Assembly: GCF_016887565.1 (NCBI RefSeq)
Contig: NZ_CP069396.1
Span: 372,001 to 436,000, forward strand
Direction: 5' to 3'
DNA: 64,000 nt
DNA from: Archangium violaceum
GTDB lineage: Bacteria; Myxococcota; Myxococcia; Myxococcales; Myxococcaceae
The notes beneath the pieces are model-generated. The model was not told the DNA's origin and ran no database searches. It saw only the letters and a program-made list of their open reading frames with translations. The translations under genes and the position numbers were made by a program. Of this stretch, positions 40,919 to 64,000 are shown piece after piece. Each line of letters begins with the position of its first letter. Positions within the stretch are counted from its first letter, which is position 1.

Positions 40919-42028
40919 TCAGTCGTAGGCTGCGATGTAGTCGAAGATGGCGGCGTAGAACTCCGGCTCGTCGAAGGTGTCCGGGCCCACGCCCACCACG
41001 TCGAGGTGGTCCTGGTTGATGACGCTCGAGGTGGAGGTCATCTGCGCGGAGGTGGGCGCGTTGATGCTGCCCAGGTAGGCGACGTTGGCGTCGTTGGTGA
41101 CGGAGTCGAAGCCGAAGGTGGACTCGCTGTACTTCAGCCGGTAGCCCATCTGCTGCGAGTTGATGCCCACCAGGCCGTCGTCATCGGCCTCGTTGGCGTA
41201 GCCGTCGCCCTTGCCCGCGGCGCCGTCGTTGTCGCAGTCGTCCACGCAGTAGCCGTCGCCGTCGATGTCGTAGAAGAACTCGCTCACCAGGTAGAGCGCG
41301 GGGTTCACGCTGCTGCCGTTCTGCGCGGTGATGAGGGACACGTAGCGGGAGGCGTAGCGCGAGTCGATGGGGTTGTTGACGTTGAAGGCCCTGGCGCCGG
41401 TCGTCGCCCCGTCGGTGGCGCTGTAGTCGTTGTAGACGAGCTGCTTGGCGGCGGCGTAGCCGTCGTTGCCGGATCCGTAGACGATGTCACCGTAGATCTC
41501 CGCCAGGGCGGCGATGACGCTGGTGACGCCGGGCTTGAGGTCCAGGATGTACTTGGCCACGGGCGAGCCGCGGTGGGGCGAGGACACGCTGACGAGCACG
41601 GACACCACGGTGTAGCCCTTGCGGGTGTAGAGCACCTTGGCCGCCTTGCGCGCGTCCAGGCCGCCCTGCGAGTGGCCGATGAGGTTCACGCGCGTGGCGC
41701 CCGAGCTGGCCATGTAGCCCTCGATGTCGTTGGCCAGGTCCAGGCCACGCGCCTCGGACGTCTGGAAGGGCTGCACCTGGCCCACGAACGTCTTCTGGCC
41801 GCCGTCGATGTCCTCGTTGCAGGGCGTCTCGAAGAGGCTGCAGGTGTCGCCGACGAACATGCCGTAGTCGTCGCCCCAGTAGTCATAGCCGAGGATGTTG
41901 TCGAAGCCGGCCATGCCGTGGGCGAACACCACGGGATAGGTGGTCTTCGCCGCGCCGGCGTGGGCGGCGGGAGCCAGACCGAGGGCGCCAGCGCAGAGCG
42001 CCAGCACGAGCGGGTGCAGCTTCTTCAT
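40919..42028 (-). CDS. Secreted triacylglycerol lipase (family I)
   Basis: A 369-residue lipase. Signal peptide MKKLHPLVLALCAGALGLAPAAHA; then YPVVFAHGMAGFDNILG (oxyanion HG), the nucleophile elbow GHSQGG (Ser120), the Asp of DDDGLVG (near 284) and His341 in NQDHLDVVG, the standard alpha/beta-hydrolase triad. An Asp-rich insert, YDIDGDGYCVDDCDNDG and GKGDGYANEADDDG, lies just before the catalytic Asp; it resembles calcium-binding DxDxDG loops and contains two cysteines. Family I lipases need calcium there, but this segment is longer. ATG 42028. A foldase follows by 59 bases. Upstream at 42146-42162 is a near-perfect sigma-54 promoter. Role: hydrolysis of extracellular lipids, fitting a predator. 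Confidence 0.9.
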   Translation of the reverse strand: MKKLHPLVLALCAGALGLAPAAHAGAAKTTYPVVFAHGMAGFDNILGYDYWGDDYGMFVGDTCSLFETPCNEDIDGGQKTFVGQVQPFQTSEARGLDLANDIEGYMASSGATRVNLIGHSQGGLDARKAAKVLYTRKGYTVVSVLVSVSSPHRGSPVAKYILDLKPGVTSVIAALAEIYGDIVYGSGNDGYAAAKQLVYNDYSATDGATTGARAFNVNNPIDSRYASRYVSLITAQNGSSVNPALYLVSEFFYDIDGDGYCVDDCDNDGAAGKGDGYANEADDDGLVGINSQQMGYRLKYSESTFGFDSVTNDANVAYLGSINAPTSAQMTSTSSVINQDHLDVVGVGPDTFDEPEFYAAIFDYIAAYD

Positions 42029-42145: not shown

Positions 42146-42162
42146 AGCAAGGCCCGCGCCAG
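42146..42162 (-). promoter_or_regulatory. Candidate sigma-54 promoter of the lipase-foldase operon
   Basis: On the reverse strand the 17 bases CTGGCGCGGGCCTTGCT match the -24/-12 consensus YTGGCACGRNNNTTGCW at every fixed position but one (G for A). GG and GC are the required 10 bases apart. The expected transcription start is about 42135, giving a leader of about 107 bases to the lipase ATG. Sigma-54 control of lipases is known in Pseudomonas; here it is inferred from sequence. Confidence 0.65.
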
Positions 42163-48673: not shown

Positions 48674-50283
48674 TCAGGGCCCCACGAGGACACCGGGGTT
48701 GAGAATCCCCTGAGGATCCAGCGCCCCCTTCACGGCCTTCAGTGCGAGCGCGAAGGGCTCTGGGCGCTCGCGGTCGTACCAGGGGCGGTGCAACCGTCCC
48801 ACGGCGTGGTGATGCGTGATGGTGCCCCCGTGAGCCATCACCGCGTCGCTGGCGGCCTGCTTCAGCGCCATCCACTGCGCCAGCTCACCGCCGGGCTTCG
48901 CCGGGCCGATGAACGTGTAATAGGGCGCGGGCCCATCCGGGTAGACGTGGGTGAAGCGGCAACTCACCGAGCCACCGCCGCAGATGCGCTCCAGGGCACC
49001 GCGCATGGACTCCAGGATGGAACCGTGGAGCTCGTCGAACCGGTCCCACGTGCACGCGGTCTCGAAGGTGTCGGCGATGACGCCGAGGCTCACCATGACG
49101 TTCTGCAGATACGGCGCTTCGATGAAGGCCGAGCGCCAGCTGTCGGCCGCGCCACCGGCACGCGCCTGGGAACCCATCTCCTCGGAGCGATAGCGGGCGC
49201 CCTCGCGGCACTCGCCCCCGTGCGAGGCGGTGATGGCGAGGGCGCGCTCCATCTTCGCCTGCTGCGGATGGTCGGCGGACTCGAAGGCGAGCACGAGCAC
49301 ACAGGAGCCATCACCCGTCACGCCATTGAGGAAGGACTCCTGTGCGTCGAGGAGGCGGCAGTTGGAGGGATGCAGTCCGGACTGGGAGAGCTCACGAACG
49401 GCGCGGGCGCCGGAGGTGAAGTCGGGGAAGTGGACGCTGGCGTTGGCGCGGAAGCGGGGGCGGGCCTGGACGCGCACCCAGGCCTCGGTGATGACACCGA
49501 GCGTGCCCTCGGAGCCGAGCACGAGCCTGTCCGGAGCGGGGCCGGCGCCGGAGGCGGGAAGACGGCGCGTCTCGTAGAGGCCGCGCGGGGTGAGCATGCG
49601 GGTGGACTGCACCAGGTCGTCGATGTGCGTGTAGAGCGTGGCGAAGTGGCCCCCGGCGCGCGTGGCGATCCACCCGCCGAGGGTGGAGAACTCGAAGGAC
49701 TGGGGGAAGTGGCGCAGGGTGAAGCCATGGGAAGCGAGCTGCGCCTCGAGCACGGGACCGGTGGCGCCGGCCTGGATGCGAGCGGCGCGCGAGACGGGAT
49801 CCACCTCGACGACGCGGTCCATTCCACGCATGTCGAGGGACACGGCGCCGCGGAAGCCGTCACCGATGGCGGCCTCGACGCCTCGCACGACGCTGGTGCC
49901 TCCGCCGAAGGGGATGAGGGCCACGCGGTGGTTGCCGCACCAGTCCATGACGGCGCGCACGTCCTCCTCGGTGCGGGGGCGGGCGACGAAGTCGGGAGCG
50001 GAGGAGAAGTCCCCGTGGAATCCGCGCACGAGGTCCCCATAGCCCTTGCCATAGGTATGCGCGGCGCGGTCGGTGTCCTCGACCGAGCAGAGCGCGGCCA
50101 GCGCCTCTGGCGGAGCGACACGGGGACGCGGGAGGCGCAGGGCGTCGAGCGCGGCGGGCTCACGGGGCTCCAGCGGGGGCCCACCGAGGAGCGCGGAGAC
50201 CTGCTCCCCGAGGGCACGGCGTGCCTCGGCCTCGGGGAACTTGTCCGCGTAGCCCCAGCCCCAGATGCTCGTCGCGCGAGTGC

Positions 50284-50287
<4 letters not shown>
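48674..50287 (-). CDS. FAD-binding oxidase, alkylglycerone-phosphate synthase-like
   Basis: A 537-residue vanillyl-alcohol-oxidase-fold protein. The N-terminus (SIWGWGYADKF) and FAD-binding segments (IPFGGGTSVVRGVE, FSTLGGWIATRAGGH, LVLGSEGTLGVITEAWVRV) are complete, and the C-terminal GTITHHHAVGRLHRPWY has the HHH motif of alkyl-DHAP synthases. Those enzymes make ether lipids by replacing an acyl with an alkyl chain. In myxobacteria such lipids signal during development, so this gene may belong there. ATG 50287 overlaps the kinase stop by 4 bases (ATGA), so translation is coupled to the upstream kinase. A close relative in the same fold (lactate or glycolate oxidase) is less likely because of the HHH motif. 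Confidence 0.85.
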
Positions 50288-53976
<3,689 letters not shown>

Positions 53977-54033
53977 GCGGGGCGGAGCATGGCAGAACCC
54001 GCGGGGCCACCTCAAATCAACCGCCGGGAGACG

Positions 54034-57000
54034 TCATGCATCGGCGCTCCAACTCCAGATGACGCGGCCGTCCTTCAGGTCGAAGTCCAGGTCGAGCACG
54101 GTGGCCATGAGCGGCTCGGCCTCGGGTGGAGTGCCCAGCTCCTGGGCCAGGTCGTGGGAGTGGTGTGACTGGAAGCGGAGGGTGAAGTCCCTCGGGAGGA
54201 GCCCTCCGGACTCGAAGTGGGAGAAGACGAAGGGGGCTTCCACGATGGCCTGGTAGCAGGCGTTGGAGGTCTGCTCGGCATCCCGGAACTGCTTGAGGAA
54301 GAGCAGGGCCTGTGGCTTGCGGAGGGCGGCCGCCAGGTTCTCCACGCGGACGAGTGGCACCAGCTTCTCGACGATCTCCGAGAAGGCGTCCGTGTCGTTG
54401 TCGAAGCGGTCGTTGCCCGTGGGACGCTCCAGGGGCTTGTCGCCATGACGGCGGATGCTGAGCACCTCGCGCATGTCGGCGCGCTGTCCCAGCTGGCTCA
54501 CCACCTGGGTCTGCACGGAGAAGTTCGCTGGCTGTCCCCAGTCCTCGGGCATGGAGACGCGGCCCATTTGCTTGGCGAAGCCGTAGATCTCCCGTCCCAC
54601 GGCCATGGCCACGCCCGTGTCCACGAAGAGGTGGGGAGCGAACAGCAGCAGCCGGTCCGCCTGGAACTCGCCGTCCACCATCTTCCCGCCGACGACGGGA
54701 ATGGTGATGCCGATCTCCCGCTCCTTCATGGAGCCCCAGCGGTTGAACTCCGGGTCCAGGGACACCGACTCGTCGATGCGGGCGCACTGCAGGACGGCGA
54801 AGCCGCCCAGTGGCCGGTACTCAGCCACGTCCTGCAAGTCATTGAAGTAGACGTCGCACAGCTGCTTGAGCTTGTCGTAGTCGCACTCCAGGAAGAAGGA
54901 GTGCAGGCGCGTGCGGCCCTGGCGGAAGGGGCCGCGCCAGGTGGCGAGCCCGCCGCGCTCCACATAGGTGGGAAGACGCCGACGGGGGAGAGGGGCGGGT
55001 TGCCGCAAGACCGTGCGAAGCTCCGGGAGACGCAGCTTCCGCTGGAGAGCATTCGCGGCCTGCTGACCGGCCATGACGGCCGCCTCCACGCACCCGGTGT
55101 TGAGGGGGGTGCGCACCCAGTCCCCGGCGAGCAGGAGGTTGTCGTAGCCGGACTCGTCCGCGCCGAGCCGGTTCGCGGTGCTGCCCGGCGGTGTCAGCAC
55201 GTAGCGGTCCGAAGGGTGCGTGCTGGCCCGGTGGTACTCGGCCATCACATCCGGGGGCATGGGGGGGGCAGGCGGCTCCTCACCGTCAGTGGAGGTGTCA
55301 GGCTTCGTGGCTTCCCTCAGGACGATGGTCGGATTCGCATTCTCCGGCCAGACGGTGGGCCGGAACTTCGCGAGCCAGTCTCGGGCGGTGGTTTTGACTT
55401 CTCCCTTCGGACGGAGTGACGATACGTGGCTCAGGGAGCTCACGGGCTTGTCCACCGGACCGTCCTCGCTCCTCACCTCCTCCAGCGGGCCGCACAGGTA
55501 GACGAGTGAACGGGGCCTGTGCGCGGGGTCCCACTTCTCCGTCGCGAGCACCTGGCTGCTGTCGGCCCAGGTGTCGAAGGGAGCCGGGCAGCAGGCCAGC
55601 ACTCCACCCTTGCGCTTCCAGCGGGCATCGTCCTCCAGCGACCGGGAGAACCAGAACTGTGAGGTCTGGGTCGCGGTGGTGGTGGCGGAGGTGACCATCT
55701 GGCGCAGGCGCGGGCTGTGCTCGAGCAGCTCGGTGCAGAGCGGCGTGAGCGCCCCCACGGAGATGGACAGCACGGCCACGTCGAAGTCCCTGCCCAGCTC
55801 GAGCGTCCTGCTCTCGGCATGCTTCTTCCACTGCCTCCATTCGCCCTGGGGTGCCTCGAAGTCGTATCCGGCCTTCTTCAGTTCGTCCGCGTCCTGGAGC
55901 TGCTCGTAGAGGGGGGCAGCCGGCCAGCACGGCAGCCCGTCCACGTCGATGAGCGGGTTGTACTCCGTGCCCGCGAGTGCCACCTGCCGGGTGACGTCGA
56001 TGGCGGCGACGCGCTGGCGGTCCTCGGACAGGCGGAGCGAGTCCACGGAGTGGAAGAACTCGAAGCGAACGCCGCGCTTCTCGAGGGCGAGGTACAGGGG
56101 GGCGATGACGACCTCGCCCATGCCCGCCTTCATCTTGAAGTAGAGGTGCTCCGTGTAGTCGAGCATCCGCAGCAGGCCCTGGAGCGCGGCACCGGCCGCG
56201 AGCTTCCCCGGGCTGCTGAAGGTGAGGTTGTACCCGGCCTGGACGATGGGCGACTCACAGGCCTCGGGCCTCGCGCCGTGCTCGCGCAGCCACGCGCGGA
56301 AGTCCCAGGCATCGAGCGGGCTCAGGTCGGCATCCGGCTCCTGGAGCCCTTCGCGGGCCAGTCCGAAGGCGATGGTGATGCCCAGGTTGATGAGGATGGC
56401 ATTGCGGCGCCCCTCGTCGTCCTGGGTGAAGCGGGGCCGGGCCTTCTCCCACTGCTCCTCGCGGGCGCGCTCGAGGGTCTCGGTGAGCGAGGTGCGCAGG
56501 GACACGGCCTTGTCCGGAGACTCGGCGCGGGCCCGTGTGAGCAGCGCGTAGGCCACCAGGGGAAGGCTTCCGTCACGTGGGAGGCCGTGGGTCAGCGGGT
56601 CGGGCCGCAGGATGTTGCTCACGTGCTTCTGGATGAGCCCCGCGCCGTCCTCGTCTGGCCCGGGCATTCCCAGGGAGGGTCCCATGCGCTCCAACAGCAA
56701 CCGCGTCAGGCGCTCGGGGTCGCTCTCCTGCCGGGCCCCTGACAACAGGTCATTCCACTTGGAGTCGAGCCCTTTCAACCGCGAGGCGAAGTCCTGGCCG
56801 AGCGGCTTCTTGCGCGGCTTGAACTTCAGCGGCCAGATGCGCTGCTCGCCCTTCACGTCCTCCAGGAAGTGGATGTCGTCATGGGCCTCGAAGGCCTGCT
56901 CCACCGTCGCGAAGGGCGCTCCGGGGCGGCGCCCCAATTCCTTGTAACACTGCCCGAGCATGCCCAGGGCCTGCTCGTAGAAGCCCATGAAGACGTGGAA

Positions 57001-57207
57001 GCCGTGCTCCTCGCTGCGCAGGCCCTGCCCCTCGTCCCTGTTGCGCCCGCTGGCGCCCTTGCCGCCCAGGCGCCAGCCCTGCTGGTAGAGGGTGATTTCA
57101 TACTGCTGCTTCCAGCCAGGCTGGCGGGTCAGCTCGAAGGCTGCGGCGAGCCCGGCCATACCACCACCCAGGATGGCGATCTTCTTCGGCTTCGAAGCCT
57201 GAGGCAT
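54034..57207 (-). CDS. Fusion of FAD/NAD(P)-dependent oxidoreductase and acetoacetate-decarboxylase-like domain
   Basis: A 1057-residue protein. The N-terminal 720 residues form a flavin amine-oxidase/phytoene-desaturase-like oxidoreductase: IAILGGGMAGLAAAFELT with WRLGGKGASGRN, and a C-terminal FAD segment NLLLAGDWVRTPLNTGCVEAAVMAGQQAA. After about residue 790 comes an acetoacetate-decarboxylase-like domain (GGFAVLQCARID, GSMKEREIGITIPVVGG, LLLFAPHLFVDTGVAMAVGREIYGFAKQMG). ATG 57207 follows GGAGGGG. A candidate sigma-54 promoter lies about 70 bases upstream at 57279-57294, and a sigma-54 activator is divergent from it. The order oxidase then decarboxylase suggests oxidative tailoring of a polyketide or terpenoid-like compound. 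Substrate unknown. Confidence 0.8.
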   Translation of the reverse strand: MPQASKPKKIAILGGGMAGLAAAFELTRQPGWKQQYEITLYQQGWRLGGKGASGRNRDEGQGLRSEEHGFHVFMGFYEQALGMLGQCYKELGRRPGAPFATVEQAFEAHDDIHFLEDVKGEQRIWPLKFKPRKKPLGQDFASRLKGLDSKWNDLLSGARQESDPERLTRLLLERMGPSLGMPGPDEDGAGLIQKHVSNILRPDPLTHGLPRDGSLPLVAYALLTRARAESPDKAVSLRTSLTETLERAREEQWEKARPRFTQDDEGRRNAILINLGITIAFGLAREGLQEPDADLSPLDAWDFRAWLREHGARPEACESPIVQAGYNLTFSSPGKLAAGAALQGLLRMLDYTEHLYFKMKAGMGEVVIAPLYLALEKRGVRFEFFHSVDSLRLSEDRQRVAAIDVTRQVALAGTEYNPLIDVDGLPCWPAAPLYEQLQDADELKKAGYDFEAPQGEWRQWKKHAESRTLELGRDFDVAVLSISVGALTPLCTELLEHSPRLRQMVTSATTTATQTSQFWFSRSLEDDARWKRKGGVLACCPAPFDTWADSSQVLATEKWDPAHRPRSLVYLCGPLEEVRSEDGPVDKPVSSLSHVSSLRPKGEVKTTARDWLAKFRPTVWPENANPTIVLREATKPDTSTDGEEPPAPPMPPDVMAEYHRASTHPSDRYVLTPPGSTANRLGADESGYDNLLLAGDWVRTPLNTGCVEAAVMAGQQAANALQRKLRLPELRTVLRQPAPLPRRRLPTYVERGGLATWRGPFRQGRTRLHSFFLECDYDKLKQLCDVYFNDLQDVAEYRPLGGFAVLQCARIDESVSLDPEFNRWGSMKEREIGITIPVVGGKMVDGEFQADRLLLFAPHLFVDTGVAMAVGREIYGFAKQMGRVSMPEDWGQPANFSVQTQVVSQLGQRADMREVLSIRRHGDKPLERPTGNDRFDNDTDAFSEIVEKLVPLVRVENLAAALRKPQALLFLKQFRDAEQTSNACYQAIVEAPFVFSHFESGGLLPRDFTLRFQSHHSHDLAQELGTPPEAEPLMATVLDLDFDLKDGRVIWSWSADA

Positions 57208-57278
57208 GTCTGTCTTTCCCCTCCGTGAGGAGCCCGGGAGCGGGCCCTCGCGCCGTGGAGTGGCGCGCGGGTGCCTTC

Positions 57279-57294
57279 AGCAAGGGACACGCCA
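57279..57294 (-). promoter_or_regulatory. Candidate sigma-54 promoter of the fusion gene
   Basis: On the reverse strand TGGCGTGTCCCTTGCT matches TGGCACGNNNNTTGCW except for two bases (GT for AC), with the GG and GC dinucleotides 10 bases apart. The start would be near 57268, giving a leader of about 61 bases before the ATG at 57207. The divergent neighbour encodes an activator of exactly this sigma factor. Confidence 0.6.
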
Positions 57295-57373
57295 TCCTGG
57301 ACCTTCCCTCTTGGAGGATGAGACGGCGTCCCCAGGCTCGTGCCGGTTGGCGTATCATGGAGACGCGGCTGCG

Positions 57374-57503
57374 TCCTGGGAGTAAGCGCCCGAGTGGAGT
57401 GGGGCGTTTCACGGGGACGCGAGGACGGCTTCCCCCGAGGTAGCGGACGAGACGCGGCGTGCCAAGGCTCGTCATGAGGAGCGGGGAATGCCATCCTGGG
57501 AGT
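57374..57503 (+). promoter_or_regulatory. Direct repeats in the divergent region, possible activator sites
   Basis: TCCTGGGAGT occurs at 57374-57383 and 57494-57503, 120 bases apart, and a shortened copy TCCTGG lies at 57295-57300 just beyond the sigma-54 promoter. GCCATCCTGG precedes two of them. The repeats lie 100 to 235 bases upstream of the predicted leftward start, a distance suited to an enhancer-binding protein. They could as well be chance repeats in GC-rich DNA. No other element is seen in the 333-base gap 57208-57540. Confidence 0.35.
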
Positions 57504-57540
57504 GCTCTCAACGGGAAGGGCGCGTCTGCGAGGGGGCCCC

Positions 57541-59298
57541 ATGTCAGAGGAGTTGTCGTCTTTCTTCGCCGCGCTGCACACGGCGAAGCACTTCGAGGAG
57601 GCGGCCAGCGAGGTGCTGCGGGCGATGCTGCTCTCCGCCGAGCGCACTCTAGAGACGGGCCGTTTCGCGCGGCGCGGGCGGTTGCTGCGCGGGGTGGTGC
57701 ATGTGCGGCCGGATGATGCCTACCGCCGGCTGGCGGTGCTGGAGATGGAGGCGGTGCGGGGACGGCCGAGGAGTGGGATGGGGCCGCCCCCCGTGGCGGG
57801 ACAGGACGTGGCGCTGCTGGCGTCGGCGTCCGCCTGGCGAGCGGTGGCCGAGCAGGGCAAGGCGGTGGCCATCGACGTGAACCTGAAGACGCTCCAGCCG
57901 CTCGAGGGGGGCGGAGTGGGCAATGCCTCACGTCCCTCGAGCGCGGCCTTCAACCCGGAGAGCCAGCGGAAGCTGCTGGGCCGGCAGGCGACGCACGTGT
58001 GTGTGTTTCCCCTGCGTGTGCCCGGGGGGCGCATCGACGGGATGATCGCGCTCGAGGCGGACTGCATGGCGGCGCTCGGGCAGGAGTTCGTCTGGAAGGA
58101 GGCGGGGGGGCAGCTGCAACTGCTGGCGGACATGGCGGCGGCCTGGCTGACGGGACTGCCTCCCCGGCCCGTCACGGCGCCGCAGACGGACGATTTCCTC
58201 CCGGTCATCGGCGCGTCGATGGCGAGCCTGGTGCCGGTGCTGCGCATCTTCGCGCAGCAGGAGGAGACGATCCTCGTCAGTGGCCCGACGGGAGCGGGCA
58301 AGTCGAGGCTGGCGAGGTGGTGCCACGAGCGCTCGGGGCGCCGGCAGGGGCGCTTCGAGAGCCTGGACCTGACGACGGTGCCGGAAGACCTCCAGATGGC
58401 GGAGCTGTTCGGCTGGAGGAGGGGCGCGTTCACGGGGGCGGTGAAGGACAACCCGGGGAGCATCGCGCGGGCGGAGGGGGGGACGGTGTTCATCGATGAG
58501 ATCGACAAGCTGTCGCTGAAGGCGCAGGCGGGATTGCTGCACGTGCTGGAGGAGCGGACCTACCGGGTGTTGGGGGAGGGCTCGGGAGACCAGCGGGCGA
58601 ACGTGCGATTCATCATCGGGACGAACGCGAACCTGAGGGAGGCGGTGCGGAGGGGCGCGTTCCGGGAGGACCTGTACTACCGCATCAACGTGCTGCCCAT
58701 CCGGGTGCCGCCACTCAACGACAGGCAGGACGAGATACCGCTGTGGGCGCGGTACATGGTGGGCAGGAGACACCAGGAGACGTTCCCCGGGGGAGAGGCG
58801 CGGCTGGAGGAGGGGGCGGAGCGGCTGCTGCTGGCGAGCGCGTGGCCGGGGAACCTGAGGCAGTTGGACAACATCATCCGCCGGGCCTACACGCTGGCGA
58901 TGGTGGACCAGGGGGGAGCGGCGCGCGAGCTGGAGCTCCGGGAGAAGCACGTGCGGCAGGCGCTGGCGTACGAGGGGACGCCGGAGGAGTCGACGCTCGT
59001 TGATGCGCTGTGTCATGCGGCGAGGGTCTTCGTGCAGGAGGCGCGCAGGAGGCAGTCGCCACTGGACATCGATCTGGCGGAGAGCTTCCGGGGCTTCGTG
59101 CTGGGGATGGCGGCGAAGCAGGTGGGGAAGGAGGAGGCGTTCCGGCTGGTGGGGCGGGAGGCGCTGGTGAAGAGCCGCAACCATCAGAAAACACTGCGGC
59201 GGGAGCTGGAGAAGGTGGAGGCGCTGTGCCGGGAGGTGGCACACCCGGGCCCCGAGTTCCTGGAGCTGCTCTCCGCGGAGGGCGGCGACTCCAACTGA
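57541..59298 (+). CDS. Sigma-54-dependent transcriptional activator (GAF-AAA+, unusual C-terminus)
   Basis: A 585-residue enhancer-binding protein. The N-terminal ~220 residues look GAF-like (FPLRVPGGRIDGMIALEAD). The AAA+ domain (about 230-460) has Walker A GPTGAGKS, the sigma-54 contact loop GAFTGA, Walker B GGTVFIDEID, and ANLREAVRRGAFREDLYYRINVLPIRVPPLNDR. The C-terminal 140 residues lack a recognisable Fis-type helix-turn-helix; EEAFRLVGREALVKSRNH could be a diverged one. ATG 57541 follows GAGGGGG. The gene lies between two -24/-12 promoters facing outward: leftward at 57279-57294 and downstream at 59492-59508. It probably controls both the fusion oxidoreductase and the downstream envelope operon. 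Confidence 0.92.
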   Translation: MSEELSSFFAALHTAKHFEEAASEVLRAMLLSAERTLETGRFARRGRLLRGVVHVRPDDAYRRLAVLEMEAVRGRPRSGMGPPPVAGQDVALLASASAWRAVAEQGKAVAIDVNLKTLQPLEGGGVGNASRPSSAAFNPESQRKLLGRQATHVCVFPLRVPGGRIDGMIALEADCMAALGQEFVWKEAGGQLQLLADMAAAWLTGLPPRPVTAPQTDDFLPVIGASMASLVPVLRIFAQQEETILVSGPTGAGKSRLARWCHERSGRRQGRFESLDLTTVPEDLQMAELFGWRRGAFTGAVKDNPGSIARAEGGTVFIDEIDKLSLKAQAGLLHVLEERTYRVLGEGSGDQRANVRFIIGTNANLREAVRRGAFREDLYYRINVLPIRVPPLNDRQDEIPLWARYMVGRRHQETFPGGEARLEEGAERLLLASAWPGNLRQLDNIIRRAYTLAMVDQGGAARELELREKHVRQALAYEGTPEESTLVDALCHAARVFVQEARRRQSPLDIDLAESFRGFVLGMAAKQVGKEEAFRLVGREALVKSRNHQKTLRRELEKVEALCREVAHPGPEFLELLSAEGGDSN

Positions 59299-59491
59299 GG
59301 TGCGTACGGAGTGGACGCACGGCTGTAGTCGAGTGCACTGAATCAGGTCTTCCCGGCTTCTTCGGTGCTTGTCGCTGTGCTGGGAGCGAGGTTGCTCCGT
59401 GCGTGCGTGCGGCACGCGGGAACGTCTCCTCGTGACGCGCCGACACCAGATGAGGGCCTGTTGTTCTCCCGTGCTCAGAGTGGAGGTGCTC

Positions 59492-59508
59492 TTGGCACGA
59501 CCTTCGCT
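59492..59508 (+). promoter_or_regulatory. Candidate sigma-54 promoter of the 59.7-62.8 kb operon
   Basis: TTGGCACGACCTTCGCT matches YTGGCACGRNNNTTGCW at 16 of 17 positions (C for T in the -12 box), including all of TTGGCACG. GG and GC are 10 bases apart. The expected start is near 59519, leaving a leader of about 188 bases before ATG 59707; a 17-bp perfect hairpin lies in it. It lies in the 408-base gap 59299-59706, directly downstream of the activator gene, which carries no other gene. Confidence 0.65.
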
Positions 59509-59633
59509 TCTGTCTGTCGCGTCGGTGACGTCGAAGTGAAGCCGGGTTCCATCCTCACCAATGGGGAGCATGCACGTCGGTACGGCCTCGGCCCGTAGGG
59601 CTGAGGGGGGGCGTACTCGTCCGTGCGTGAAGA

Positions 59634-59677
59634 GGGCCAGGAGTGAGAGCACCGGGGGGAGCTCTCACTCCTGGCCC
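59634..59677 (+). promoter_or_regulatory. Perfect 17-bp inverted repeat (leader hairpin)
   Basis: GGGCCAGGAGTGAGAGC (59634-59650) is the exact reverse complement of 59661-59677, around a 10-base loop. It lies 29 bases upstream of ATG 59707 and about 115 bases downstream of the predicted sigma-54 start, so it would be a long, very stable RNA hairpin in the 5' leader. No T-run follows, so a simple terminator is unlikely. Options are mRNA stabilisation, attenuation or translational control, or a protein-binding palindrome. Confidence 0.8.
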
Positions 59678-59706
59678 GACATGAGGAGGCGGCGCCAATC
59701 ACTCTG

Positions 59707-60939
59707 ATGAGGAGGATCATCTTGTCGAAACGGGGATGTCTGTCGCACTGGCTCGCTGCTCTGCTCTCGCTCGTCATCTGGTCCACCTCGAGCTTCGCCG
59801 CGGAAGGGGGCTCGCAACAGCAGGACGACGAGAGGCACTCGAACCTGGCTCAGCAAATACAGGTGTCACTGATTCAGGAAAATCTGAAGGCGCTCGAGGC
59901 GGACCTGCAGGTACTGCAGCGTGAAGCCGCGAAGACCCAGAACGTGCTCAATGCATTGAAGGAGGTAAAGATCGACGAGCCCCGCCTTCGCGGTGTTTTT
60001 CAGACGCTCAGCGATAACACGAACGCGCTGGCGCAGCAGGCGGACAAGGGGACCAGACTGGACCCCACCCAGGTTGCCAGGGTGAAGCAGGGCCTGCGCG
60101 AGCTGCGCCATCTCACGACCGACAATGTGCCCGCCTGGCCATCACCGCCTACGAGCAGCGAGAACGCTCGGTCCGTGCTGTTAGAGATCTACGTGGATGA
60201 CGGCATCAAATACACGAGCAAGATTCCCTGGGAGCAGCTCTTCGCCCTCAGCTGGCTCGATGCCGATGCGACCGAGCGTGTCGTCTCGGACCAGGTGAAA
60301 GCCCTCCACCGTACGCTTCAGTCCGTTACGGCGGATACGATCCTGGAAGATAACAAGGGGTTGAGAGACGCGGCCAATACCGCCTGGTCGGCTGTGCGGG
60401 GTCGCATCGAATCGGCCCGAAGTGTACGCGAGACCCGGAAGGAAGATCTGCTCCAGACGCTGGACGAACTCGGCACCATTCAACAGCAGACGGACAAATG
60501 GCTGATCTACTCCATCATGGGGATGATCGTCATCCTCTTCCTCATCTTCTTGTCCGCCATCGTCTTCGCTCAGCAAGACATCCAGCGACTCATCTTCGGC
60601 GGGCGCTTGCTCGTGGAGTTGGTGGGGATGGCCTTCCTTCTCCTTACGATCATCATTCTAGGCACCGGCGCGAAGATCGACCGGGCCGTTCTGGGCGCGC
60701 TGCTGGGCACGGTCGGCGGTTACATCTTCGGACAGCAGATCAGGCGCTCCACCCGGGAGGAGGAAACGAGCCAGCGCGCAGCGCAGCCCGCGGACGTGGC
60801 GCAACCATTGAATGAAGTTGCTGAGTTTCTCAAGAAGGCTCAGGCCAACGGTGTCTCCACCGATGAGATGACGAAGCTGGTGAAAAAAGCGTCCATGGTC
60901 GTCGAGAAGGCTCAGTCCAATCTGGGGACGAGGACCTGA
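59707..60939 (+). CDS. Membrane protein with coiled coil, first gene of sigma-54-type operon
   Basis: A 410-residue protein with a signal-like start (WLAALLSLVIWSTSSFA). Then a 200-residue helical, coiled-coil region (LIQENLKALEADLQVLQREAAKTQNVLNALK) and a spaced set of polar helices. Three hydrophobic stretches follow near 265-340: WLIYSIMGMIVILFLIFLSAIVFA, LLVELVGMAFLLLTIIILG and AVLGALLGTVGGYIFG. A charged cytoplasmic tail (about 60 residues) ends the protein. I recognise no family. Codon choice is plainly less G+C-rich than in the neighbours, as expected for acquired DNA. The ATG 59707 follows AGGAGG-like text at a distance of about 18 bases, so start 59710 or another site is possible. 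Confidence 0.65.
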   Translation: MRRIILSKRGCLSHWLAALLSLVIWSTSSFAAEGGSQQQDDERHSNLAQQIQVSLIQENLKALEADLQVLQREAAKTQNVLNALKEVKIDEPRLRGVFQTLSDNTNALAQQADKGTRLDPTQVARVKQGLRELRHLTTDNVPAWPSPPTSSENARSVLLEIYVDDGIKYTSKIPWEQLFALSWLDADATERVVSDQVKALHRTLQSVTADTILEDNKGLRDAANTAWSAVRGRIESARSVRETRKEDLLQTLDELGTIQQQTDKWLIYSIMGMIVILFLIFLSAIVFAQQDIQRLIFGGRLLVELVGMAFLLLTIIILGTGAKIDRAVLGALLGTVGGYIFGQQIRRSTREEETSQRAAQPADVAQPLNEVAEFLKKAQANGVSTDEMTKLVKKASMVVEKAQSNLGTRT

Positions 60940-60993
60940 CATCGATGACAGGGGATGGATGTCGGGGGATTTTCCGCTGCTACAGAGGGAACA

Positions 60994-61305
60994 ATGAGCG
61001 TGAGAAACATTCGTTTGGAAATGACGAAGGGGTCGAACACTCTCGAATTGCAAGGGGAACTCTACGAGGCGCCCATCCGACCTGATGATGAACCCGTGCG
61101 CGCGGTGAAGCGGGTTCGGAGGGATGTCGCGGCTGGATATCGCGTGGATCCTGGGAGCTACTCTTTTCGCTTTGATGTGTCGACTGGCTCCGGGAAGTAC
61201 ACGCTGGAGGCATTCCAGGGTGACGCCGATGTTTCATTTGCCAGTGGTTCTTTTGATACGGCCGATGGACGCACACTCGTTCAGTTCAAATTCACGGTTA
61301 TCTAG
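60994..61305 (+). CDS. Small beta-rich protein, second gene of the operon
   Basis: A 103-residue protein. ATG 60994 follows AGAGGGAACA, 54 bases after the previous stop. No signal peptide. Alternating hydrophobic/polar pattern (SVRNIRLEMTKGSNTLELQGELYE, GSYSFRFDVSTGSGKYTLEAFQG, ADVSFASGSFDTADGRTLVQFKFTV) predicts a beta-sandwich, as in small binding modules or carbohydrate-binding domains. The KRVRRDV stretch in the middle is basic. No match to a family I know. Function may be to bind a partner of one of its envelope-protein neighbours. Confidence 0.6.
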   Translation: MSVRNIRLEMTKGSNTLELQGELYEAPIRPDDEPVRAVKRVRRDVAAGYRVDPGSYSFRFDVSTGSGKYTLEAFQGDADVSFASGSFDTADGRTLVQFKFTVI

Positions 61306-61314
61306 GGAGTCGTG

Positions 61315-62799
61315 ATGAAAAGGCACGCGGCAATGCTGATGCTCGTCCTGCTGGCCTTCAGCGGTGTGAGCTGGGCCGGGCAGGATTCACAAGAAACGGG
61401 GGATGATGGCTCAGATAGTCAGACGATCAGGACTCCGCGCCTGCTTCTGCCACTCAAGCTCGAAGGGTCGACGGAGGGAACGGGCACGTTGCGTGCCGGG
61501 GTAGGATTCCTCGTTCCCACGGGAAAGGATAGCAGCCGAAGCTTGGGATTGGTGGCGGATTACCGGGTCCAAACCTCGAACGGGCTGGCGAAGCTCTTCG
61601 GGCTCACGGATGCCAGTGATGCAAAGGATAGTCGCCCCTGGACGCTTGGGTTCACGGGTACGCTGGTTCAATTCCCTGAACTGGTTCCGCCAACACGTAC
61701 TGGGAAGAACAGTGCGCTGGGCGAGTCTCTGCGGAAGGCTGTTCGGCTTTGCGCGGGTCTCTGCACGGTCGTGCCTCAATCCGAACCGAACCAGAGCTTC
61801 TGCTCCGCCTATGAAAAGGCCGTGACTCCACGCGAAGACGAGTGGATCAAGGGCTGGAACTCGGATGCCAGCACTCTGCCTGCCAGCCGATTTTGTGAGT
61901 CCGAGAAAAAGGGCGTGAGTGACGCGGATCAGGATCTTTCCACTGGGAAGATCGATTCGGCGGGGTGGCGTGCGGCGCGCGGTAAAGCACTGCGCTCATG
62001 CTTGAGGAAGTGCACGGCAGACGCTTCGGATCCTTTCTGCGAACTTCCAAGGCAGCCAGTCGACGAGGCCTATTCCGATATCAGCTCCACGCTGCTGTGC
62101 CCGGCGGGAAAGAGTGAGTACCAGCGTTCGGAAAGGGAGCTTGGAAGAAGCCGGGCTTTTCCGCCGCTCATCGTCAACGCCGGGGCTCGCTTCGGCATCA
62201 ATGACTTCAAATACCGGTCTGGCTCGTCCGACGACCCAAATGTCCTTCTCGAGGGCAAGAGTTCCCTCTGGGACTGGAGTGTGGGTGCATCGGCCATCGG
62301 CGTTGTTGCTGGTGAGAATCCTGCTCTGACGATCGAGGGATTGATGGTGTCCAGCTCCAAATGGACCCCGAGCTCCAAGGCGATTCGCTGGTGTTCACCG
62401 GCGGGGGTCATTCCTAGAGGAGACAACGCAACTGATCCCGCCGAGACTTGTCAAGAGGCGGTACTGGGTGCTCCTGTGAAGAGCCGTACCCTCAAGTTCG
62501 CGGGCTTCATTGGGCTCGCGGACAATTATGATGCACGGTGGCGTGCCGCTCTGGGTGGAGAGTTTGTCGTGCCCACACGCTCCGGTGCGACTGAGCTGTA
62601 CAGTTCATCCCTACAAGGCCGATTCTTCTGGTCGTTTGCTTCTGACCCGAGTGGCCTCAAATACAAAGGCATTCTCCGCTTGTCTCCTGGGATCCGGTGG
62701 ACGCGGAACAGGGATGATTCCGTGGATCTCGAAGCATTTGTTACGCTGGCATTGCTCGGCGAAAGGTTCCTCTTCACGGAAACATTTGACGAGCTGTAA
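61315..62799 (+). CDS. Secreted protein, possibly outer-membrane, third gene of the operon
   Basis: A 494-residue exported protein: signal peptide MMKRHAAMLMLVLLAFSGVSWAG. The body has repeated beta-like strands (GVGFLVPTGKDSSRSLGLVADYR, TLKFAGFIGLADNYDARWRAALGGEFV, and GRFFWSFASDPSGLKYKGILRLSPGIRW) and ends in FLFTETFDEL, without the usual terminal aromatic of a porin. A central cysteine-containing insert (RLCAGLCTVV, QSFCSAYE, SCLRKCTADASDPFCEL) has at least seven cysteines, suggesting disulfides. ATG 61315 with AGGGAG just upstream, 9 bases after the previous stop. Base composition is lower in G+C than the flanks. No family recognised; an outer-membrane barrel with an extracellular insert is possible. 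Confidence 0.6.
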   Translation: MKRHAAMLMLVLLAFSGVSWAGQDSQETGDDGSDSQTIRTPRLLLPLKLEGSTEGTGTLRAGVGFLVPTGKDSSRSLGLVADYRVQTSNGLAKLFGLTDASDAKDSRPWTLGFTGTLVQFPELVPPTRTGKNSALGESLRKAVRLCAGLCTVVPQSEPNQSFCSAYEKAVTPREDEWIKGWNSDASTLPASRFCESEKKGVSDADQDLSTGKIDSAGWRAARGKALRSCLRKCTADASDPFCELPRQPVDEAYSDISSTLLCPAGKSEYQRSERELGRSRAFPPLIVNAGARFGINDFKYRSGSSDDPNVLLEGKSSLWDWSVGASAIGVVAGENPALTIEGLMVSSSKWTPSSKAIRWCSPAGVIPRGDNATDPAETCQEAVLGAPVKSRTLKFAGFIGLADNYDARWRAALGGEFVVPTRSGATELYSSSLQGRFFWSFASDPSGLKYKGILRLSPGIRWTRNRDDSVDLEAFVTLALLGERFLFTETFDEL

Positions 62800-62816
62800 G
62801 GGATGGATGGCGGATG

Positions 62817-64000
62817 TTATGGGGTCGGAGCCGTGGGGGGCTCTGGTCCCAGCTCCGACTCCAGGTGTCGCGCTGCTGGTATCTCTCTTCGTGGCAGCGC
62901 CGACGCCTCATGCAGCACCGGCAGCGGGAACTTGAACGGCTTCCCGTCCGACGCATGAGTATGCCCCGTCACCTCCGCGGCGCCCATTCCCTGGCGCTGC
63001 GGCTGGAACGTGGTCTGCGGGTCGCTCGCTGACACCTTTCCCGCGCGGAACACCGCGAAGCGCGTCAGCAGCGCCCCCGCCGAGCCCAGCAGTGCCCTCG
63101 CCACCTTCATCCACTTGCGCCGGCCCGGCCACACGCCCAACGCCAGTGACGCCGCGGTGCACACCTTGGCCGCCTTCCACAGTGTCCCCGAGGGTCCGTG
63201 TTTCAGCGGCCGAACGAGCACCTCCAGGCGCGAGGCCTCGTGCTGCACCGCGACTCCGGCCAGCAGCTCCCCCACCTTGCCCATCGCGCTGAACAGGTGG
63301 AGCACCTTCTCGTCGCGCTTCGGGTGCGGCAGCAGCTCCATGAGGCTCCCGGCGCCCGCCATCGCCGACGACATGAACAGCAATGGCAGCGACTTGCGCG
63401 TGGCCTGCCAGATGGGCACGGCCGTGTTCGCGATGAGCACCGCCGTGTACCCGGCGAGCGGCAGTCCCAGGAGGCCCGCCGCGATGGCCGCTCCTTCTCC
63501 CGCGCGCCCCAGCCAGCCGCGCCGGCCGGCGAACAGCAGGGACGCGGTGTTCATGGCCCCCGAGCCCACCAGCACCCACGAACCCACGCTCATCGGCGAC
63601 GTGGGACGGAACACGCGCAGCATGTTCAAGAAGCGCGTCGGCCGTCCCAGGTCGTAGATGAGCAGCCCCGAGCTCACGATATCGCCCGCGGTGCCCACCC
63701 ACCGGCACCTGCGCCCGAGGCCCTCCATCCGCTCCCCGCCAAAGACATCCGCCGCCGCGCCCAGCACGCTCGCCGCGCCCGCCACGCCTCCCACGTAGAA
63801 GTAGAGCGGGATGCTCCAGATCCACACGGGCTCCTTGATGGCCGGCTGCCCGTAGTAGCTCGGCGACTCCGCGTTCACTCCCGATTGCGAGGGCCGCGTC
63901 CGCAGCAGGCCTCGCGAGGGGTTGGCCTCGTCGATGCCCTTCACCCGCTGCTGTGCGCCTTCACCGGCCAGCACGCCCAGCCGCGAGTCGATGTTGCGCC
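62817..64000 (-). CDS. NrfD/PsrC-like membrane subunit (partial, N-terminus beyond window)
   Basis: The reverse strand is open from the right edge to a stop at 62817, so the N-terminus lies outside the window (GTG 63974 is only an internal candidate). It contains the NrfD/polysulfide reductase pattern: AIKEPVWIWSIPLYFYVGGVAGAASVLGA, DIVSSGLLIYDLGRPTRFLNMLRVF (charged loop RPTRF), PTSPMSVGSWVLVGSGA, and PLLFMSSAMAGAGSLMELL. About eight hydrophobic helices are visible, followed by a Pro/Arg-rich soluble tail of 70 residues. NrfD proteins anchor iron-sulfur or molybdopterin oxidoreductases and move electrons to or from quinones. Partner genes are not in the window. Convergent with the previous operon. 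Confidence 0.88.
   Translation of the reverse strand, partial: RNIDSRLGVLAGEGAQQRVKGIDEANPSRGLLRTRPSQSGVNAESPSYYGQPAIKEPVWIWSIPLYFYVGGVAGAASVLGAAADVFGGERMEGLGRRCRWVGTAGDIVSSGLLIYDLGRPTRFLNMLRVFRPTSPMSVGSWVLVGSGAMNTASLLFAGRRGWLGRAGEGAAIAAGLLGLPLAGYTAVLIANTAVPIWQATRKSLPLLFMSSAMAGAGSLMELLPHPKRDEKVLHLFSAMGKVGELLAGVAVQHEASRLEVLVRPLKHGPSGTLWKAAKVCTAASLALGVWPGRRKWMKVARALLGSAGALLTRFAVFRAGKVSASDPQTTFQPQRQGMGAAEVTGHTHASDGKPFKFPLPVLHEASALPRREIPAARHLESELGPEPPTAPTP

Follow-up and report, generated by a model that had tools for sequence, protein, structure and literature searches.

Does a single sigma-54 activator that lies between two outward-facing -24/-12 promoters control the operons on both of its sides? 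The question is raised by a locus of Archangium violaceum within a 64,000-nt stretch of contig NZ_CP069396.1 (positions 372,001 to 436,000), which is called the window here and supplies the coordinates used below. The locus comprises the activator gene, a probable left operon with a serine/threonine (Ser/Thr) kinase gene and a right operon of three genes (Table 1). It was compared within a set of 36 loci of one activator family, namely the window, two paralogues and 33 loci from relatives (L numbers); 41 loci with 26-40% identity over part of the activator were left out.

Judging from these comparisons, we consider it likely that the locus forms a sigma-54 switch that is gated by a kinase and has its own enhancer, two outward promoters and targets that were exchanged in relatives. 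From the genes, promoters, arrays, spacing and kinase neighbourhood observed here, we infer binding, activation, kinase input, feedback and target function as follows. The activator would bind arrays of ACGC/GCGT half-sites in both flanking intergenic regions and loop to the sigma-54 polymerase about 100 bp away, opening the outward promoter on each side. The left output would be the operon of a fusion enzyme, the kinase and an FAD oxidase, and the right output a putative envelope operon of three genes. The kinase would most likely gate the activator via phosphorylation or complex formation, and because it seems to be part of the left target operon, a self-reinforcing feedback circuit would result.

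Matching arrays at the two outward-facing promoters

The predicted enhancer is an array of alternating half-sites, GCGT-N9-ACGC-N4-GCGT-N9-ACGC, with a 21-bp repeat, which was spotted while reading the DNA upstream of relatives' promoters. GCGT-N9-ACGC occurs four times in the window (57350, 57404, 59302 and 59401), and all four occurrences lie in the two activator flanks, which make up 741 of the 64,000 bases. On both sides, the distance from the array centre to the predicted start site is about 100 bp. The array score matrix was built without the window flanks; one Markov simulation of 697 kb contained no array score of at least 11, compared with those of the two flanks (Table 1). In the source genome (13.2 Mb, a single contig), the full array, when no more than one mismatch is allowed, is present in three places, two of which are the activator flanks, and the third lies approximately 0.33 kb ahead of an astacin gene adjoining the activator of the first paralogue. 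It is the position of the arrays, not their number, that is striking in this genome.

Both 16-base promoter sites carry the GG and GC dinucleotides at consensus spacing. The left motif lies 72 bp ahead of the minus-strand open reading frame (ORF) starting at 57207, the right motif 199 bp ahead of the ATG at 59707, and compared with TGGCACGN4TTGCW the right site has one mismatch and the left site two. A weighted -24/-12 matrix with approximate frequencies was scored over the 64 kb; the right promoter ranked first and the left third, and the top three sites were all intergenic. The outward-facing motifs described earlier on both sides are real and correctly spaced, and both rank among the top three sites of the window. 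Together, the matching array and the 100-bp distance at both promoters support the proposal of the earlier note that one activator may control both sides.

The number of such motifs did not exceed chance in the 64 kb. TGGCACGN4TTGCW was found 8 times (9.4 expected) and TGGCN7TTGCW, with one mismatch allowed, 30 times (22.6 expected), and the number of sites above the matrix thresholds was not clearly above that of Markov sequence. Bare consensus counting, which fails to separate the motifs from chance, was discarded as evidence; the two promoters exceed chance because the enhancer array stands ahead of both. The remaining site of the top three, CTGGCGCGGGCCTTGCT (42146-42162, minus strand, matrix 14.6), lies 118 bp ahead of a gene at 40919-42028 with weak palmitoyl-thioesterase/PGAP1-like matches, and no GCGT-N9-ACGC was found at it.

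The activator has the GAFTGA AAA+ domain that the earlier note had read from it: the Pfam family Sigma54_activat matches with 165 bits, the sigma-54 interaction domain carries Walker A and B motifs, and GAFTGA is invariant across 16 aligned activator sequences. Among PDB sequences, its AAA+ part is most similar to a Nif-specific regulatory protein, NtrC-family regulators and flagellar regulatory protein C. Residues 1-215 also aligned well in the 16 sequences. This N-terminal part had no meaningful Pfam or PDB match, and a guess that it is a GAF domain was dropped. A single-sequence fold was discarded at a mean predicted local distance difference test (pLDDT) score of 36.4. The 1008- and 1251-residue activators of L045 and L046 were rejected as fusions: no Pfam domain was found in the extension, the alignable protein begins at an internal Met, and the extension is treated as a gene-calling artefact. 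In the source genome, 61 places match the activator at E<=0.001.

Table 1. Features of the activator locus, in window coordinates
Feature	Position	Strand	Remarks
FAD-linked oxidase, likely last gene of left operon	48674..50287	-	4-base overlap with kinase gene
Ser/Thr kinase-AAA_16-TPR protein, recurrent partner family of activator	50284..54015	-	Pfam
Target 1, FAD/NAD-binding oxidoreductase fused to acetoacetate-decarboxylase-like domain	54034..57207	-	
Left -24/-12 promoter ATGGCGTGTCCCTTGCT	57279..57295	-	16-base motif TGGCGTGTCCCTTGCT, 57279-57294; faces fusion gene; matrix 14.3
Left array GCGT-N9-ACGC-N4-GCGT-N9-(AAGC)	57350..57387		one mismatch; score 26.0
Second left GCGT-N9-ACGC element	57404..57420		
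Sigma-54 activator	57541..59298	+	585 aa; N-terminal ~215 aa, GAFTGA AAA+ domain, conserved C-terminal region
Upstream right GCGT-N9-ACGC element	59302..59318		directly past activator stop codon
Right array GCGT-N9-ACGC-N4-(ACGT)-N9-ACGC	59401..59438		one mismatch; score 15.0
Right -24/-12 promoter TTGGCACGACCTTCGCT	59492..59508	+	16-base motif TGGCACGACCTTCGCT, 59493-59508; faces three-gene operon; matrix 17.6
Strong leader hairpin, ~17-bp stem	59634..59677	+	sequence and fold of 59521-59740, z = -4.68
Target 2 gene 1	59707..60939	+	signal-peptide-like N-terminus by eye; start possibly TTG 59722 after AGGAGG 59710-59715
Target 2 gene 2	60994..61305	+	103 aa, no family
Target 2 gene 3	61315..62799	+	signal-peptide-like N-terminus by eye, no family

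The array beside the activator family and across genomes

Array elements and sigma-54-like sites (matrix score at least 9.5; a looser threshold of 7 was also tried) were concentrated beside the activator and kinase genes, together called the module. A sigma-54-like hit was present in 21 upstream regions at most two genes from the activator or kinase (32.9 kb in all), compared with 6 regions in 30.7 kb further off. Intergenic DNA near the module (27.6 kb) contained 46 GCGT-N9-ACGC elements, against 3 in intergenic DNA elsewhere (33.1 kb) and 45 within genes (636 kb), whereas 15 other GCGT/ACGC spacings (3 to 18) gave only 0-5 occurrences each near the module. Similarly, ACGC-N4-GCGT was found 23 times in intergenic DNA near the module, once in other intergenic DNA and 18 times in genes. 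Intergenic array elements were found in 23 of the 36 loci (in L044 the N4 half alone), and in every one of these the elements share an intergenic region with a sigma-54-like site at least once; the other 13 loci have no intergenic array elements.

The arrays are also oriented and spaced relative to promoters. All 20 exact intergenic arrays in module loci had an outward site within 220 bp (22 outward sites and no inward one), as did 17 of the 22 intergenic arrays in 20 stretches picked by array (25 outward, none inward); at threshold 7, four and one inward sites appeared, respectively. An outward start site at 75-140 bp accompanied 35 of 48 score-found intergenic arrays versus 2 of 122 random intergenic positions; in the set of array distances, one site was counted twice where L039 and L195 overlap. 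Helical phasing of the array-to-promoter distances is suggestive (R = 0.64 at 11 bp for 25 hand-de-duplicated values), with a better fit at 11.5-12 bp.

Other arrangements were seen among the relatives. In L185, L187, L191 and L195, one or two arrays lie between two divergent -24/-12-like promoters, and one array may serve two genes at once there. Arrays within the kinase coding sequence were found in L107 (6325), L109 (1809), L110 (6321), L111 (13327), L113 (6326), L039 (12130) and L105 (13043); except in L105, a -24/-12-like site directed along the kinase gene follows 144-164 bp on, making an internal promoter in the kinase gene of those relatives possible. No full array was present at L010, L043-L047 and L098-L104, which represent two deeper activator branches and some of which have strong -24/-12-like sites nearby; these branches may use another enhancer.

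Across 145 genomes of the order (G numbers), for which counts were cross-tallied by hand with the reversed array pattern as control, 57 of the 60 activator-bearing genomes contained the exact array, versus 1 of the 85 that lack the activator. The reversed control split nearly alike (51 of 60 versus 6 of 85), and co-occurrence of array and activator was withdrawn as strong evidence. Presence proves little because the reversed control is similarly distributed, and it mostly follows kinship and genome size. The number per genome still speaks for the array: the 27 genomes of genus g23 contain 5-19 exact arrays each versus a single reversed-control site each; that the control occurs exactly once in every one of them suggests one conserved place. 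In a comparison within genera, activator and array are both present in G106 and both absent from G015, G032 and G105, as well as from G004, which belongs to the genus of the window. In G035, the sole array genome without the activator, 10 of the 13 arrays stand in runs at 21-bp steps (tandem repeats).

Several of these and further observations weigh against a common control of both promoters through the array. Each of the two window arrays carries one mismatch over its four half-sites, the score of the right array is near the bottom of the accepted range, and the right promoter has TCGC in place of TTGC. In the source genome, the array is not enriched over the reversed control, either with up to two mismatches (16 versus 37 places) or exactly (1 versus 1), and the three-half-site pattern with at most one mismatch is not enriched either (90/96 versus 143/156). 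Added to the outcome of the reversed control across the order, G033, G107 and G108 have activators of deeper branches alone and no array, and G003, G018 and G110, also with deeper branches alone, have 1-2 exact arrays away from the activator. Orthologous sites are not independent in the array and promoter counts. The C-terminus of the activator had no Pfam helix-turn-helix (HTH) family at E<=0.01, in a region that is conserved in the alignment.

The kinase and the probable left operon

The kinase is a recurrent neighbour of the activator. It was found in the activator's stretch at 28 of the 36 loci, specifically at 21 of 22 outside genera g17, g23 and g26 and at 7 of 14 sampled inside. The two genes are directly divergent in 15 loci, an extracytoplasmic function (ECF) sigma factor gene lies between them in 3, and in one activator branch the kinase is several genes from the activator; in the window, the fusion gene separates them. 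The identities of activator and kinase are correlated (r = 0.86, 253 pairs from 23 loci), part of which is shared species history. On the basis of neighbourhood and correlated identities, the kinase probably provides input to the activator. A possible though less likely alternative is that the kinase lies nearby but takes no part in the circuit and that a ligand of the activator's N-terminal domain does the gating: 8 of the 36 loci have no kinase in the fetched stretch, the activator persisting there, and in several others the kinase is 4-6 genes off. The recurrent, often directly divergent neighbourhood and the correlated identities speak for a gating kinase instead.

The window itself is discordant in this respect, a further point against the proposed switch: its activator groups with those of L009, L035 and L096, its kinase with the group of L039, L107 and L099. 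The window kinase may therefore have been exchanged. Its best NCBIfam match is TIGR03903, the TOMM system kinase/cyclase fusion, with 282 bits, which is below the family cut-off of 705.75. In L039, L105, L107, L110, L111 and L113, the f12-f8-f13 gene set comes after the kinase gene, and f8 and f13 are YcaO and TfuA in L039; this suggests that the kinase is tied to peptide modification in those loci.

The first gene behind the left promoter encodes an amine-oxidase/NAD-binding N-terminus and a C-terminus resembling acetoacetate decarboxylase (27.3 bits, just under the cut-off of 29.8). The earlier label "tailoring enzyme" was a guess, as the N-terminal part resembles HpnE only weakly (60.8 bits, well short of the cut-off of 283). 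The fusion gene ends at 54034 and the kinase ORF starts at or shortly past 54015; given this junction and the overlap of the kinase and FAD oxidase genes, the three genes are likely to form one left operon. The promoter does face the fusion gene that had been named as the left target, and the unit behind it probably extends to the kinase and FAD oxidase instead of being the fusion gene alone.

Targets, remaining alternatives and known systems

The predicted targets, listed as genes behind sigma-54-like promoters within four genes of a module, differ between loci, while the kinase and activator are kept. They include an astacin-LGFP protein (L009), a tyrosinase (L010), an RCC1-repeat protein (L035), a 190-residue protein without recognised family (L036), a DUF642 protein and a C-type lectin (L044), a protein with a weak DUF7910 match and one without family (L099), a thermolysin-like peptidase (L100), an Ig-like protein (L104) and a CBM96 protein (L105). 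Additionally, ECF sigma factors are predicted targets in L038 and L106 (Pfam) and, by family, in L096 and L097, which suggests a sigma-54 to ECF cascade in these four loci. The promoters of L010, L099, L100 and L104 have no array element, and that of L044 has half of one; L010, L044, L099 and L104 belong to one deeper activator branch and L100 to another. Lipoboxes were recognised by eye in targets of L009, L010, L035, L036, L044 (second gene), L104 and L105. Arrays also occur away from modules, for example between a collagen-like lipoprotein gene and a tail-collar gene, and this place gave the one lipobox seen by eye among 16 candidate targets away from modules. An exterior theme thus appears to hold beside modules and not clearly beyond them.

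The right operon remains as unrecognised as when it was first described: no NCBIfam family was found in it, and no Pfam family except one weak sub-threshold match to gene 1. At E<=1e-10 in 58 other genomes, gene 1 has one homologue (32% identity) and gene 3 one partial homologue (28%). Between the right promoter and gene 1 lies the very stable hairpin, a further point against activation from this promoter, and its stem could act as an attenuator or terminator; no U-tract terminator and no sigma-70-like promoter were called in the hairpin region, and an Rfam scan of 53900-63000 found no family at the gathering threshold. Beyond the operon, an NrfD-family gene cluster lies near the module both in the window (62817-63974) and in L035 (13869-15074) in opposite orientation, which suggests a local rearrangement.

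The lineage-specific character of the right operon and its hairpin would fit a different arrangement, in which the activator controls one side, most likely the left, or its own gene, and the other array is a leftover or a distant aid to the same promoter. Relatives offer a parallel, as in 12 of 14 sampled loci of g17, g23 and g26 an array and a promoter directed at the activator gene both stand ahead of that gene, an arrangement seen in L040-L042 and L107-L115. We consider this unlikely for the window, where both promoters face outward at an equal distance of 100 bp from their own arrays, the right promoter ranks best and the left intergenic region has no site of at least 9.5 directed at the activator gene. 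Very unlikely is that the arrays belong to another regulator acting at sigma-54 promoters while the activator uses other sites, a reading favoured by the missing HTH match, by cross-genome presence hardly more telling than the reversed control and by the exact arrays in G003, G018 and G110, against which stands the sharp concentration of arrays beside activator and kinase genes and at both window flanks.

The preferred reading of a kinase-gated activator serving both promoters resembles several known systems in part. At the sequence level, the GAFTGA AAA+ domain and the array upstream of a -24/-12 promoter are like those of the enhancer-binding proteins NtrC, NifA and PspF. Unlike this class, the activator has an N-terminal domain without meaningful Pfam match, a neighbouring Ser/Thr instead of histidine kinase, and an enhancer in which 4-base half-sites alternate and the pattern repeats every 21 bp; unlike the two-component NtrC family, it had no receiver domain in Pfam scans. 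Enhancer-binding proteins with an FHA domain occur in myxobacteria, whereas the same scans gave no FHA match in the activator. PknK/AcoK-type Ser/Thr kinases combine a STAND ATPase with repeats, and their order resembles the kinase, AAA_16 and TPR order of the window kinase, whose presumed output differs in being a separate sigma-54 activator. The TOMM kinase/cyclase is similar in being the best NCBIfam match and in the YcaO and TfuA genes that follow the L039 kinase gene, with the neighbour families f8 and f13 also present in L105, L107, L110, L111 and L113; unlike in that system, the score is far below the cut-off and the gene after the window kinase encodes an FAD oxidase.

For repeated half-sites at -24/-12 promoters, the accessible part of one report provides a myxobacterial precedent in Nla28 of Myxococcus xanthus, for which they were tested by mutation and electrophoretic mobility shift assay (PMC7910581). 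Nla28 is described there as a response regulator that is paired with a histidine kinase and has CT(C/G)CG(C/G)AG as its half-site (PMC7910581), and in both respects it differs from the window. In the accessible part of a survey of its functions, sigma-54 was proposed as a controller of the bacterial exterior (PMC3162934); many module targets, which resemble lipoproteins or secreted proteins by eye, are in line with this theme, and the module itself is absent from that part of the account. Nor is it mentioned in the accessible part of PMC7694542, and titles and abstract beginnings in the open-access literature searched describe neither the kinase-activator module nor the array.

It is quite possible, and we propose it tentatively, that the module is a portable self-regulating cassette for surface remodelling, in which a STAND-like Ser/Thr kinase and an activator with a private 21-bp-periodic enhancer are combined with swapped targets (astacin, RCC1 and other lipoproteins, ECF sigma factors and, here, the fusion enzyme and envelope operon) and with kinase feedback. 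To our knowledge, the inputs, sites and targets of most myxobacterial sigma-54 activators are not known. Fifty-three such activators were reported in Myxococcus xanthus, according to the accessible part of the survey (PMC3162934). For one activator family, an enhancer that can be read, a set of predicted targets and a probable kinase partner now emerge from sequence alone, so that a circuit from kinase to sigma-54 can be put directly to the test. Should the kinase gate the activator, the module would correspond to a two-component system built on a Ser/Thr kinase, in which the targets are exchanged and the control parts are kept.

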